This document shows positions 1,676-6,028 of a stretch of DNA of 33,653 bases, piece after piece (the stretch's first letter is position 1; every line of letters starts with the position of its first letter). The notes under the pieces were generated by a model that saw nothing but the letters and a program-made list of their open reading frames with translations, did no database searches and was not told the origin of the DNA. A program made the position numbers and the translations under genes. The DNA lies in assembly GCA_019120515.1 (NCBI GenBank), contig DWUY01000057.1, positions 1 through 33,653 of the forward strand. Reading direction: 5' to 3'. The stretch comes from Candidatus Blautia avicola. GTDB lineage: Bacteria > Bacillota > Clostridia > Lachnospirales > Lachnospiraceae.

Positions 1676-4600
1676 TTACCTCCCTCCTGACCGCAGGTTC
1701 TGTCTTGCCTGCGCCGACACTACCAGTTCATCCAGAAGCGTCCCGCCTACATATACCGGGATCACGATGTTTCCCTGCGGACTGGAAAATCCCGCCAGTG
1801 CTTCCGATACCGCAAAAGAGATCCCGGAGATTAGGTCGGACATACTCCCGCCGGATAGAGCGCCATCGGCATAACCATACTCTGAACCGTTCACCTTCGG
1901 GGAAATCACCATGTCCGAAGCTACATCCCGGACAGCTTTCTCCACCAGGTTCCGGTTCTTCTCAATGCCGCTCGCCAGCCCCTTCATAAAGTCCGGCATC
2001 CAGGTTTCATAATCCGCCAGAGGCCCCTCATCCGGAGCCGAGAAATGCAGGAAGGAGCGGATACGGTCAGCCAAACCGGAAACCGTGTTGATCACACTCT
2101 GGATCATGCTGGAAATCCCGTTGATCAGCCCCTGAATGAAATCTTTCCCCCACTGAAACGCCTGCCCCGGCAGTCCGGTGATGAACCGGATGGCGGAAGA
2201 AAATCCATTGGAGACCACGGAATACAGCCCGGAAAGGGACGAGCCGATCCCGGAAACCATCCGTTGGAAGGCAGACACCGCTGCTTCACGCAATGCGGAT
2301 GCAATATTCACCACCGTGGTCTTGATGCCGTTCCAGACAGAAGACGCTGTCTGCTTCATCGCCGACCAGATCTGAGAAGCGAACTGGGACAGAGCCGAAA
2401 GCACCGTCTCCACGCCCTGCTTCAGTCCCGAAGCCGCAGAAGTCACCACCTGCCGGATTCCTGACCAGATCTGGGAGGCGGCATTTCTGATATTGTTCCA
2501 GATATTGGCCGCATCAGACGCAAGCTGTGAGAAATTTCCCGTCACCAGGTCGATCAGCAGAAGCACCGGAGCCAGAATCACATTTTTCAGCAGTTCAAAA
2601 GCGCCGGAGGCAATGTCACAGATCCCCGACCAGATGCCCTGCAGGGTATTTTTCGCGTTCTCCCACAAAGAAGTAATCGTTGTCACTACCAGCTGGACAA
2701 TGGGATTCTGCCGGATCGCGTTCCAAGTATTCGTGAAAAATGCGGATACCTGTGACCACAGGCCGCTCCACCAGTCCGGGATGGCAGAAAAAAAGCCGAT
2801 GAAAGTCTGAAACGCCGCCGGGATGGTCTCCGTGAAAAAGACCACCAGCCCATTCCATAATTCCATCAGCTTTTGGAATACCGACTGCCACAAGTTCCCG
2901 AACCACTCCGTAATCGCGCCCCAGTTTTTCACAATAGCGATAATCCCGGCAATGGCCGCTGCCACCCCGGCAATAATACCGATCACCGGGAGCAGGGAAA
3001 TGTTCAGCGCCCCGAAGGAAACTGCCAGGGCCGCAATTACTGGTGTCAATGCGGTAAACGCCACCAGCAAAGCCCCAAGGATTACCACAAAATTCTGCAC
3101 AGGCTCCGGCAGCATGCCGAATACCTCGCTCACTGCCGTAATAATGGCCACCAATGACGGCAGCACCACATTGGCCAGCTCCACGATCTTTTCACCCAAA
3201 GGAACCAGCGCCTGCTGCAACTTCCTTGTATTGGCCTCCATCTCCTGCATAGGCGTCTGCGTCTGGCTGAATAAGTTCTGCGCAGATCCGGCAACACTGT
3301 CATAGGTCTCTCCCACAGAAGTCAGGGAAGTAATAAATTTCAGGTTCCCATCCTCAGCCATGGTACCGAAGGCCTGTGCCGCCATGTTCAGGGCTTCCTG
3401 CTGGCTGGTGCAGTTTCCGATATCCGCCACAATGGAATCGATCACCTGCTTCTGGGTAGCTTCCCCGTTCTGCCATGCCAGGAACAGGGACTGTGTTTTC
3501 TGGGAATACAGGTCAATGGAATCCCCTATAGTTCCATCCGCCAGGCGGGTAGTTACCTCATTAATGGCGTCATTGACCTTGTCCAGATTGTAAGCGCCGC
3601 CCTGCAGGCCGTTCTGCAGAAGCTGGAAATACTCGGAAGCGGAATACCCCGCCTGCTCAAATTTCCCCGCATACTCAGACAGGTTATCGCCCAGCTCATT
3701 GGTCTTGTCCAGGCCGTTCTGGGTACCCCGGACAATATAATCCATGGCCTCCTGGGCGGTCAGGCCATACTGCTTCATCAAAGAATTGACGCCCCGGAGG
3801 GTCTCATTCATGTCAATCCCGTACAGTTCTTCCAGAGTCAGCGCCTGCTTCGTCAGGTTAGTCAGGTCGGTATCTCCCAAATCGCCCAGGTTCTTCTTTA
3901 CCATGATGACCGCTTCCGCCACAGCGTCCATGCTCTGGCCCACGCCGGAGCCGTACACATTTTTTACGATCTCCGCGCTGGCTTCCGCCGCCTCCCCGGT
4001 CTCCCCGAAGTAGGCATTTACCTTGGAAACGGCTGTCTCTGTCTCCGCGTAGGCATTCACAGCCTTATCGCCCACATCCTGGATCTTATCCCCGACCACA
4101 GACAGCTGATCAGCGGCTTCCATCAGGGCCGCACCCTTGGTGGCCTGGGCAATCTCCCCAATGTTATCCGCGGCGTCCTGGGCAGCGTCCCCCACATCAT
4201 TCAGATCCTCGATCAGGTTCCGTACCGCCTGCCCGTCATCCACCGTATCCAGGGCATCCGTCAGCTGTTTGATATCCGCCTTTCCTCCGGTAACCGCTTT
4301 CCCGATCTTCTCCACGGCTGTTTTCAGCTGATCGGAAGAAACCGTCCCGTTGCGGATCGCCGTCACCAGGCGGCTCCCCAGCACATCGGCGTAATCATCC
4401 ACACTGGAACCCGTCGCCGCGAACAGCTTGTTCAGCCGCTCCGTATTGGACGCCAGCCGCTCCTGCTCTGACTGCAGGCCGGAAAGATCCGCCTGATATC
4501 GGTTCAGCACTCCGCGGGTTTCCTCTACCTCCCGTTGAAAAGCCATGTACTGGTCTTTCCCCAGGTCGCCCCGCTCAAAGGCTTTCGTCACATTCTCCTG

Positions 4601-4834
4601 AGCCTGTTCCAGTGCTTCCAGCTTCTTTTCCGTATCTCCGATGGCCGCCTGCAGAAGTTCCTGCTTCTGGGCCAGAAGGATGGTATTGGATGGATCCAGT
4701 TTCAGAAGGTTATTCACATCCCGAAGCTGACTCTGGGTCTTCTTTATGGAATTGTTCACTGTGGAAAGCGATTTTTCCAGTCCGCTGGTATCGCCGCCGA
4801 TCTCCACTGTAATACCCTTGATCCGGCTTGCCAT
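1676..4834 (-). CDS. Phage tail tape measure protein
   Basis: 1052 aa; coiled-coil N-terminus, TMP-like helical core (AYAETETAVSKVNAYFGETGEAAEASAEIVKNVYG), central hydrophobic segments, repeated IWSGI/SIWNGI motifs, LHFSAPDEGPL segment typical of Firmicutes tape measure proteins. Confidence 0.95.
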   Translation of the reverse strand: MASRIKGITVEIGGDTSGLEKSLSTVNNSIKKTQSQLRDVNNLLKLDPSNTILLAQKQELLQAAIGDTEKKLEALEQAQENVTKAFERGDLGKDQYMAFQREVEETRGVLNRYQADLSGLQSEQERLASNTERLNKLFAATGSSVDDYADVLGSRLVTAIRNGTVSSDQLKTAVEKIGKAVTGGKADIKQLTDALDTVDDGQAVRNLIEDLNDVGDAAQDAADNIGEIAQATKGAALMEAADQLSVVGDKIQDVGDKAVNAYAETETAVSKVNAYFGETGEAAEASAEIVKNVYGSGVGQSMDAVAEAVIMVKKNLGDLGDTDLTNLTKQALTLEELYGIDMNETLRGVNSLMKQYGLTAQEAMDYIVRGTQNGLDKTNELGDNLSEYAGKFEQAGYSASEYFQLLQNGLQGGAYNLDKVNDAINEVTTRLADGTIGDSIDLYSQKTQSLFLAWQNGEATQKQVIDSIVADIGNCTSQQEALNMAAQAFGTMAEDGNLKFITSLTSVGETYDSVAGSAQNLFSQTQTPMQEMEANTRKLQQALVPLGEKIVELANVVLPSLVAIITAVSEVFGMLPEPVQNFVVILGALLVAFTALTPVIAALAVSFGALNISLLPVIGIIAGVAAAIAGIIAIVKNWGAITEWFGNLWQSVFQKLMELWNGLVVFFTETIPAAFQTFIGFFSAIPDWWSGLWSQVSAFFTNTWNAIRQNPIVQLVVTTITSLWENAKNTLQGIWSGICDIASGAFELLKNVILAPVLLLIDLVTGNFSQLASDAANIWNNIRNAASQIWSGIRQVVTSAASGLKQGVETVLSALSQFASQIWSAMKQTASSVWNGIKTTVVNIASALREAAVSAFQRMVSGIGSSLSGLYSVVSNGFSSAIRFITGLPGQAFQWGKDFIQGLINGISSMIQSVINTVSGLADRIRSFLHFSAPDEGPLADYETWMPDFMKGLASGIEKNRNLVEKAVRDVASDMVISPKVNGSEYGYADGALSGGSMSDLISGISFAVSEALAGFSSPQGNIVIPVYVGGTLLDELVVSAQARQNLRSGGR

Positions 4835-4864
4835 GTGTCATCCACCTCCTGAAAATGAATATAG

Positions 4865-4885
4865 AAAAACCCGGATTACTCCGGG
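4865..4885 (-). terminator. Hairpin plus T-run upstream of the tape measure gene
   Basis: - strand CCCGGA-GTAA-TCCGGG-TTTTT; perfect 6 bp stem and U-tract, about 30 nt upstream of the TMP start. Confidence 0.6.
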
Positions 4886-4961
4886 CGGAATCTTTGCATA
4901 TTTTCTTTTTTCTTCGAATACAATAATCAAAGGACAAAGCCGCCGGATTTGCTAAAAGCCA

Positions 4962-4990
4962 TTGACTTTTGAGTAGATCCGTGCTAGACT
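4962..4990 (+). promoter_or_regulatory. Strong sigma70-type promoter for the Abi-associated RNA
   Basis: TTGACT (4962-4967), 17 nt spacer, TAGACT (4985-4990) with an extended -10 TG at 4982-4983. Confidence 0.8.
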
Positions 4991-4996
4991 CTGTCT

Positions 4997-5064
4997 TAGT
5001 GATCAGGTTTCAGATACTCGTGAGGACTGAGACCGGGGGAGGACCTGCGGGCCCTCCTTTTTTT
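4997..5064 (+). ncRNA. Candidate small structured RNA (possible RNA antitoxin) upstream of the Abi_2/HEPN gene
   Basis: Starts about 7 nt after the -10. Stem 5006-5013 GGTTTCAG / 5027-5034 CTGAGACC (8 bp, one G-U). Intrinsic terminator GGAGG-A-CC-TGCG-GG-C-CCTCC (5038-5057) followed by T7 (5058-5064). No ORF inside. Confidence 0.75.
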
Positions 5065-5092
5065 ATTCTGAAAACAGGAAGAGGGGGAAGCT

Positions 5093-6028
5093 TTGTCAAA
5101 ACCGTTTCTTACATACGACCAGCAGCTTGATAAACTGCAGAACGAAAAAAAACTTCAAATTCATGACCGGGCAGCCGCAAAAGAAATCCTAAAAAATATC
5201 GGATATTTTTCCTTGATCGGAGGATACAAAGCACCGTTCATCAACCCGATGACACGTATTTACCAGAACAATACTTCTTTTGAGGATATCTATGCCCTGT
5301 ACCAGTTTGATCTTTCCCTGCGTGAACTTGTTTTCAAATATTTGTGTGAAATAGAATGTAAAATCCGGCAGCTTGTTTCCTACCATTTTTGCAGTCTCCA
5401 TGGCGAACAGCAGACCGCATACCTCACTCCTGGGAATTATAATCATATAAAAAAGAACTCTGCTGATATCACCCGCCTGATCCAGATCTTATCCTACCAG
5501 GCAAATAAAAATACGGAACATAATTATGTTGTCCACCAACGGAAGGTTTACCATAACGTTCCTCTATGGGTGCTGACCAACACCCTGACTTATGGACAGA
5601 TTTCCAGGTTTTACGCCTTGCTTCCCTTCCAGCTGCAAAGCGGTATCAGCAAAGATTTTCCAGGCGTTAATGAAAAGAACCTGGAACGTTATCTGAAAAT
5701 TCTTACCCTGTTCCGGAACGTATGCGCACATAACGAGCGGCTTTATTCTTTCCGGACCCAGATTGATTTTCCAGATACAATACTTCATCAGAAACTGAAT
5801 ATACCAAAAAAAGGGAATCAGTATCTTTCTGGAAAACGGGATCTGTTCGGTCTGGTCATCGCTTTCCGTTACCTGCTTCCCAAACAGGACTTTCTGGAAT
5901 TTAAACGTACATTAATCGGTATTATCAATAAGTACACAAAAAACAGCGGACAGATCAGTGAATCTTCCCTTTTGGATATAATGGGATTCCCTGCAAACTG
6001 GAAAGATATTACCCGCTACCGCATTTAA
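5093..6028 (+). CDS. Abi_2 family (AbiD/AbiF-like) HEPN-domain abortive infection protein
   Basis: 311 aa; Abi_2-type N-terminus (KPFLTYDQQLDKLQ...AAAKEILKNIGYFSLIGGYKAPF), ALYQFDLSLRELVFKYLCEIECKIRQLVSYHF core, and RNVCAHNERLYSF containing the HEPN R-x4-H motif (R208-H213). TTG start with a GAGGGGGAAG ribosome-binding site. Confidence 0.9.
   Translation: MSKPFLTYDQQLDKLQNEKKLQIHDRAAAKEILKNIGYFSLIGGYKAPFINPMTRIYQNNTSFEDIYALYQFDLSLRELVFKYLCEIECKIRQLVSYHFCSLHGEQQTAYLTPGNYNHIKKNSADITRLIQILSYQANKNTEHNYVVHQRKVYHNVPLWVLTNTLTYGQISRFYALLPFQLQSGISKDFPGVNEKNLERYLKILTLFRNVCAHNERLYSFRTQIDFPDTILHQKLNIPKKGNQYLSGKRDLFGLVIAFRYLLPKQDFLEFKRTLIGIINKYTKNSGQISESSLLDIMGFPANWKDITRYRI

Follow-up and report, generated by a model that had tools for sequence, protein, structure and literature searches.

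Does the small RNA encoded directly upstream of an abortive infection gene in Candidatus Blautia avicola act as an antitoxin for the product of this gene, or is it simply the leader of its mRNA? The RNA gene, of approximately 66 nt, has its own conserved promoter and lies about 30 nt 5' of a TTG-started Abi_2/AbiD gene. Both were found in a stretch of 33,653 nucleotides (contig DWUY01000057.1), which is called the window below. Judging from comparative data and from the analogy with related systems, we assign a probability of roughly 85% to the RNA being the antitoxin gene of an AbiD toxin-antitoxin/abortive-infection module, which would be a moron in a prophage tail module, with the RNA binding AbiD and holding the RNase inactive. 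By the same analogy, the RNA very likely keeps the neighbouring AbiD enzyme off. The features of the locus are listed in Table 1.

Table 1. Predicted features of the RNA-abiD module (positions in the window)
Feature	Positions	Strand	Basis
RNA promoter: -35 TTGACT 4962-4967, 17-nt spacer, extended TG 4982-4983, -10 TAGACT 4985-4990	4962..4990	+	kept in homologues
Small structured RNA, AbiD-associated antitoxin RNA candidate	4996..5064	+	covariance model R1 4996-5061 and covariation
Leader AGUGAUC, conserved, single-stranded	4998..5004	+	alignment A1; several phage copies without the gene have it too
Hairpin A with 13-nt loop (5014-5026)	5006..5034	+	RNAfold, covariation, loop comparison
Hairpin B, a GC-rich stem capped by a UGCG tetraloop, plus U7; Rho-independent terminator	5038..5064	+	RNAfold, A1, covariation
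abiD (Abi_2) gene, 311 aa from a TTG start, with RNVCAH as HEPN motif (residues 208-213)	5093..6028	+	PF07751, PADLOC, 8vz6

As read from the sequence, stem A is formed by GGUUUCAG (5006-5013) and CUGAGACC (5027-5034), which enclose the loop AUACUCGUGAGGA. Hairpin B consists of GGAGG (5038-5042), A, CC, the tetraloop UGCG (5046-5049), GG, C and CCUCC (5053-5057), with the U-run at 5058-5064. The 5' end of the RNA is expected close to 4998. The two hairpins, the 13-nt loop and the seven uridines described in an earlier sequence-only reading are all in place, and RNAfold predicts both hairpins (-25 kcal/mol). The stability is not unusual for this composition (z -1.49, 18 of 200 shuffles being equally stable), and thus the case is a comparative one, thermodynamics by itself being weak.

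Homologues of the AbiD protein were taken from bacterial genomes and viral contigs, and their upstream regions were compared. These regions share a common RNA, and 35 distinct homologous RNAs were aligned (alignment A1). Seven pairs of stem A (columns 12-18/32-38) are formed in all 35 of them. In tests that remove relatedness only in part, stem A has a covariation score of 0.555, compared to the mean of 0.238 in shuffled alignments (0 of 500) and the maximum of 0.114 when slid; double-changed cells number 45, compared to 11.6 for shuffled alignments and no more than 8 for slid ones. A wide range of pair types occurs, with six at one pair. Hairpin B covaries too by the same tests, and its pair adjoining the tetraloop switches between C-G and A-U. 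When phage copies are included (44 distinct arm pairs), 99% of the arm positions of hairpin A pair, compared to 77% in shuffles (maximum 83%). Thus the covariation that had been proposed as a check was observed in both hairpins, and the changes in stem A are compensatory, not the uncompensated drift that was to speak against the candidate.

The loop is conserved in sequence. C4, G7, G9 and G12 are present in 67 of 67 distinct hairpins and A10 in 65, although the set was picked by a loop pattern fixing the first four positions, with stems free to vary, so that the invariance of these four is partly built in. The same loop conservation is seen in A1, which was scored without a loop limit but comes from pattern-chosen loci; in the RNA of locus L172, found by the covariance model only, the loop has diverged. 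Position 11 is A, G or U in 25, 25 and 16 of the 67 hairpins, respectively, while C4 is invariant. This speaks against a conserved internal CUC/GAG mini-stem suggested earlier, which, if formed, would leave a loop of 2 nt; it was rejected.

The covariance model R1, built from homologous RNAs, scores the window RNA 86.6 bits at 4996-5061, the window sequence being in the training set through L003; five held-out RNAs (L062, L075, L108, L089, L048) score from 85 to 39 bits. Within the order, 42 of 392 genomes have an R1 match, compared to 4 of 398 over the phylum, and three of these four belong to the family of Blautia itself. No Rfam family reaches its gathering score with the window RNA. A weak match to sbrA (20.1 bits, gathering score 45) is a terminator resemblance only and was discarded. 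Membership in the abiF RNA family RF03085 was rejected as well, since no match was found up to E 10 in positions 4840-5150, nor there in a search of the whole genome. The whole-genome search yields an RF03085 match upstream of another abi_2 gene (C324); the third abi_2 gene (C188) is preceded by an RNA of the same kind as the window RNA.

In a tree of 67 proteins, those linked to R1 and those linked to RF03085 are split by a branch with 100/100 support; support for the R1 group itself is weak (50/60) relative to a few proteins whose genes have different upstream sequences. The separation of RNAs by protein clade points to a fit between each RNA class and the proteins of one clade. We consider the window RNA to be a second, structurally distinct class of partner RNA, its newness being measured against Rfam 15 and the literature consulted. 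It may already be covered by Zilberzwige-Tal et al. 2025, a study from which two AbiF covariance models are cited in another paper. Upstream of Abi_2 genes of a third clade (L049, L050) there are other hairpins whose loop is somewhat alike; these may represent another RNA class.

The product of abiD is, judging from its sequence and model, an Abi_2 HEPN ribonuclease and a putative toxin. PF07751 matches it with E 8e-47 over 183 of 184 positions, and PADLOC assigns it to AbiD (E 1.3e-65). The R[NHD]xxxH motif is present, with R208, N209 and H213 invariant in 16 aligned homologues, where C211 and A212 are invariant too. The AlphaFold2 model (pLDDT 94.7) has one significant fold match in PDB, the PbAbiF dimer with its ncRNA (8vz6, E 7.9e-12, TM 0.74/0.77), and sequence searches yield the same single entry. 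As Abi_2 proteins are kin of the HEPN domains of Cas13 (PMC12165695), one could imagine an early form of Cas13-like guidance, in which the RNA is a guide that steers AbiD towards the transcripts to be targeted. However, there is no variable spacer: the leader, the loop and the tip of hairpin B are conserved, and the drift of the stems is compensatory. We find guidance very hard to believe and retain the antitoxin reading.

The arrangement of the locus is conserved. A promoter with a score of at least 9/12 occupies the corresponding position in 30 of 33 AbiD-linked homologues, compared to 6% of shuffles, and in AbiD-linked loci the -10 element ends 4-5 nt before the first position of the R1 model. 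The AbiD frame usually lies 22-44 nt 3' of the end of the model. It is present within 400 nt downstream in 67 of 97 R1 matches inspected, weak ones included, a share biased by the many loci fetched through AbiD. Several bacterial loci have a broken abiD gene with the RNA kept in front of it, which is what one would expect if loss of the antitoxin before that of the toxin does harm. The window has the layout of AbiF-type RNA antitoxins: a structured small RNA with its own promoter and terminator, residing beside abi_2 and conserved together with the gene.

As hairpin B terminates transcription between the promoter and the gene, and most relatives hold this order, the region might be a leader attenuator acting only in cis, with hairpin A serving as an anti-terminator or a sensor for read-through into abiD and no action in trans. 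However, in L172 (genome G190, 1642-1707) the RNA is 3' of an intact abiD gene and is preceded by TTGACT-17-TATATT, with no RNA visible 5' of the gene, and phages carry copies without any abiD gene (see below). Further, no alternative pairing between hairpins A and B is predicted by RNAfold, and the loop and the leader are conserved in sequence. The L172 RNA with its own promoter and the gene-free phage copies contradict the possibility, raised earlier as a refutation, that the region functions only as a 5' leader; on these sequence grounds the RNA is not only a leader, and a purely cis-acting attenuator seems improbable to us. The same copies lend indirect support, at most, to the putative neutralisation of AbiD in trans. 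On the other hand, it is likely, by analogy with the RCd22 RNA of Clostridioides difficile, that the terminator of the trans-acting antitoxin also limits transcription of abiD in cis: the layout is the same as in RCd22-abiF, where both levels of control were demonstrated (PMC12373285), although the cis part cannot apply to L172. This refinement is compatible with the antitoxin reading.

Other layouts were observed as well. In L103 (1398-1464 and 2464-2530) and L144 the gene is flanked by an RNA on either side. The RNA is a single unit in the window, as had been noted; in the homologous locus L096 there are two tandem copies (246-311 and 314-379), both 5' of the gene. In L164 (1108-1162) and L165 (1126-1180), hairpin A with the leader (35.4 bits by R1) resides between prophage-like genes without abiD, and a near-perfect 14-bp inverted repeat, AATGCTTGTCTGTG / CACAGACAGGCATT, encloses hairpin A in place of hairpin B. 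In five loci of one genus (L141, L156, L157, L158, L161) the RNA, again without abiD, precedes a small ORF starting with MCDVKKYSDIYKEIAKLNPKDTL; in most of the five it also precedes a zeta-toxin-like gene (PF06414).

The RNA-abiD module is on the plus strand, with a tape measure gene (1676-4834, minus strand) on one side. Intact relatives have a PHROG 709 gene, also on the minus strand, on the other side of the module. By eye, the window retains only the apparent end of a tail gene, followed by host sequence, and thus we probably see the remnant of a prophage. Transcription of late genes would be antisense through the module. A terminator-like hairpin (4869-4886, minus strand) between the module and the tape measure gene could stop such transcription. 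The unit is found beside the tape measure gene, in the opposite orientation, in the window and in L177, L180, L181, L184 and L185; this is a recurrent site of moron insertion in several phages.

Viral contigs were scanned with loop patterns, and the matches were judged by R1. At least 15 viral loci have an R1 match but no AbiD frame. The records of these loci, many of which are fragments, contain no Abi_2 domain at any place. Searches by tblastn with 67 queries found no abiD remnants in the stretches around the gene-free phage copies, while the same searches did find remnants in degraded bacterial loci; thus the phage copies were not considered to be leftovers of lost abiD genes. BLAST against INPHARED phages, which is weak for so short a query, found the RNA only together with abiD.

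Several gene-free copies are close to tRNA genes. In L202 (5596-5661) and L193 (200-265), with the score of 72.7 bits, the RNA is situated in an array of eight tRNAs, where tRNA-Met precedes it by 2 nt and tRNA-Arg follows after 5 nt. It is 6 nt before tRNA-Tyr in L427 (3177-3242, 78.3 bits) and 2 nt after tRNA-Ser in L186 (7480-7539, 35.9 bits). Hairpin A only is found 17 nt before tRNA-Gln in L215 (6338-6364) and L316 (4388-4414), at 25.9 bits, and 42 nt before tRNA-Thr in L318 (3011-3035, 20.5 bits). In L260 (5185-5250, 55.3 bits) the RNA follows tRNA-Leu at a distance of 332 nt, with a ROOL RNA nearby. Terminase or portal genes are present on L202, L427, L186 and L318, and L215 has a tail or head protein match. 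Among the matches listed, 7 of 15 gene-free copies are within 300 nt of a tRNA gene, compared to 1 of 226 pattern matches failing the model (Fisher 6e-9); with near-identical pairs merged, the fractions are 5 of 12 and 1 of 226 (Fisher 8e-7), the five being independent lineages. Coincidental pattern matches were considered and rejected, as most loop-pattern matches fail the test of stem and model. On score alone, the weakest members, L259 and L318, could be due to chance; four weak viral matches (L298, L314, L321, L424) were treated as chance, and the one control near a tRNA gene (L368) looks like coding sequence.

Among the matches listed, one of 11 gene-free copies has its own promoter at 9/12, which is the level of shuffled sequences, and this absence of promoters fits release of the RNA from the tRNA transcript. 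By analogy with phage-borne antitoxin mimics, we would give about even odds to several phage lineages having stand-alone AbiD antitoxin RNAs in their tRNA arrays, where they would be cut out by tRNA processing and used as decoys holding the host AbiD inactive. The lytic cyanophage S-CREM1, with 24 tRNA genes, has an RF03085 motif (PMC9964418). A DNA region of Lactococcus phage sk1 is reported to protect phage 712 from AbiF, in a study listed in PMC12737573. The sk1 sequence has no RF03085 or R1 match; two tRNA genes are situated near the end of its middle region (L438, 27505-27717), and one Lactococcus plasmid leader compared with sk1 had nothing useful in common with it.

Taken together, the proposed antitoxin role is supported by compensatory changes in both hairpins, the conserved loop, leader and promoter, the linkage to the gene, the correspondence of RNA class and protein clade, the similarity of the protein, with its catalytic motif kept, to RNA-bound PbAbiF, the retention of the RNA next to broken abiD genes, and the precedents of RCd22 and AbiD1. 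Within the proposed module, the conserved fold, the promoter, the linkage to abiD and the pairing of each RNA class with its protein clade are matters of observation. The earlier suggestion of a folded, non-repeat antitoxin RNA for the adjacent Abi gene is the reading with the best support, without the loop mini-stem and without the view of AbiF antitoxins as tandem repeats. The mechanism could be as follows. A housekeeping promoter would produce the RNA of about 66 nt. As in RCd22 and AbiD1, most transcripts would end at hairpin B, leading to an excess of the RNA, and occasional read-through would yield the abiD mRNA. As in PbAbiF-ncRNA and RCd22, the leader, stem A and the conserved 13-nt loop would bind AbiD, with the RNase site held inactive. 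Loss of the RNA during infection would then free AbiD.

Cas13 has been proposed to stem from AbiF/AbiD proteins, and its guide from their RNA partners. A distinct partner RNA with strong covariation and its own protein clade allows for a clean comparison of RNA recognition. If the gene-free copies are decoys, they form a class of RNA counter-defence that can be searched for by sequence and provide a new reason for phages to keep tRNA islands, which then would be stores of RNA counter-defence beyond tRNAs alone.

Several known systems are similar to this module. The ToxIN, AbiQ, TenpIN and CptIN antitoxins are tandem repeats, unlike the single unit in the window, and the toxin is not ToxN-like, as it belongs to the Abi_2 family with AbiF as the only significant fold match. 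Nor do AbiF antitoxins generally conform to the earlier notion of long tandem repeats: each PbAbiF monomer binds one ncRNA (PMC12737573), and RCd22 has two motifs (PMC12373285). The pseudo-ToxI RNA of phage PhiTE, a phage-borne mimic of the antitoxin demonstrated by experiment to allow escape from abortive infection (PMC3475682), is a model for the gene-free phage copies; however, it mimics tandem repeats of ToxI, whereas here single hairpins reside in tRNA arrays and would have such a role by inference.

The RF03085 abiF RNA is also a short hairpin RNA 5' of abi_2 genes, and some of its loops are similar by eye (CUY..GANGC). However, in the loci seen here this motif is itself followed by a U-run, whereas the window RNA has a separate terminator, hairpin B; the window RNA has no match to the RF03085 model, which leaves the protein and the gene layout as the basis of the functional analogy, and the partner proteins form another clade. 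PbAbiF with its AbiFr ncRNA (8vz6; Zilberzwige-Tal et al. 2025) is the only significant match in both fold and sequence, and, according to other papers, is an AbiF dimer in which each monomer has one ncRNA bound. The identity in the fold alignment is about 22%, and the comparison is that of proteins only.

The AbiD1 gene of the L. lactis plasmid pIL105 is directly preceded by a 50-nt transcript ending at a terminator (PMC2661086). This resembles the window in layout, the feature compared. Activation of AbiD1 was described at the level of translation, by phage Orf1 (PMC2661086), in work that did not consider an antitoxin role for the 50-nt RNA. By this analogy, it may be an RNA of the same kind. 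Finally, RCd22 from the C. difficile prophage phi027 has two RF03085 motifs and is located in the lysis module, whereas the RNA considered here is single, differently structured, without an RF03085 match, and located in the tail module. On the other hand, RCd22 is also a small RNA that has a sigma-A promoter and a terminator and directly precedes an Abi_2 HEPN gene in a prophage, and it acts as a folded RNA with no cleavage between motifs. It binds AbiF, which it neutralises both in cis and in trans, intact stems being required in trans, and the R and H of the HEPN motif are needed for AbiF toxicity (PMC12373285).
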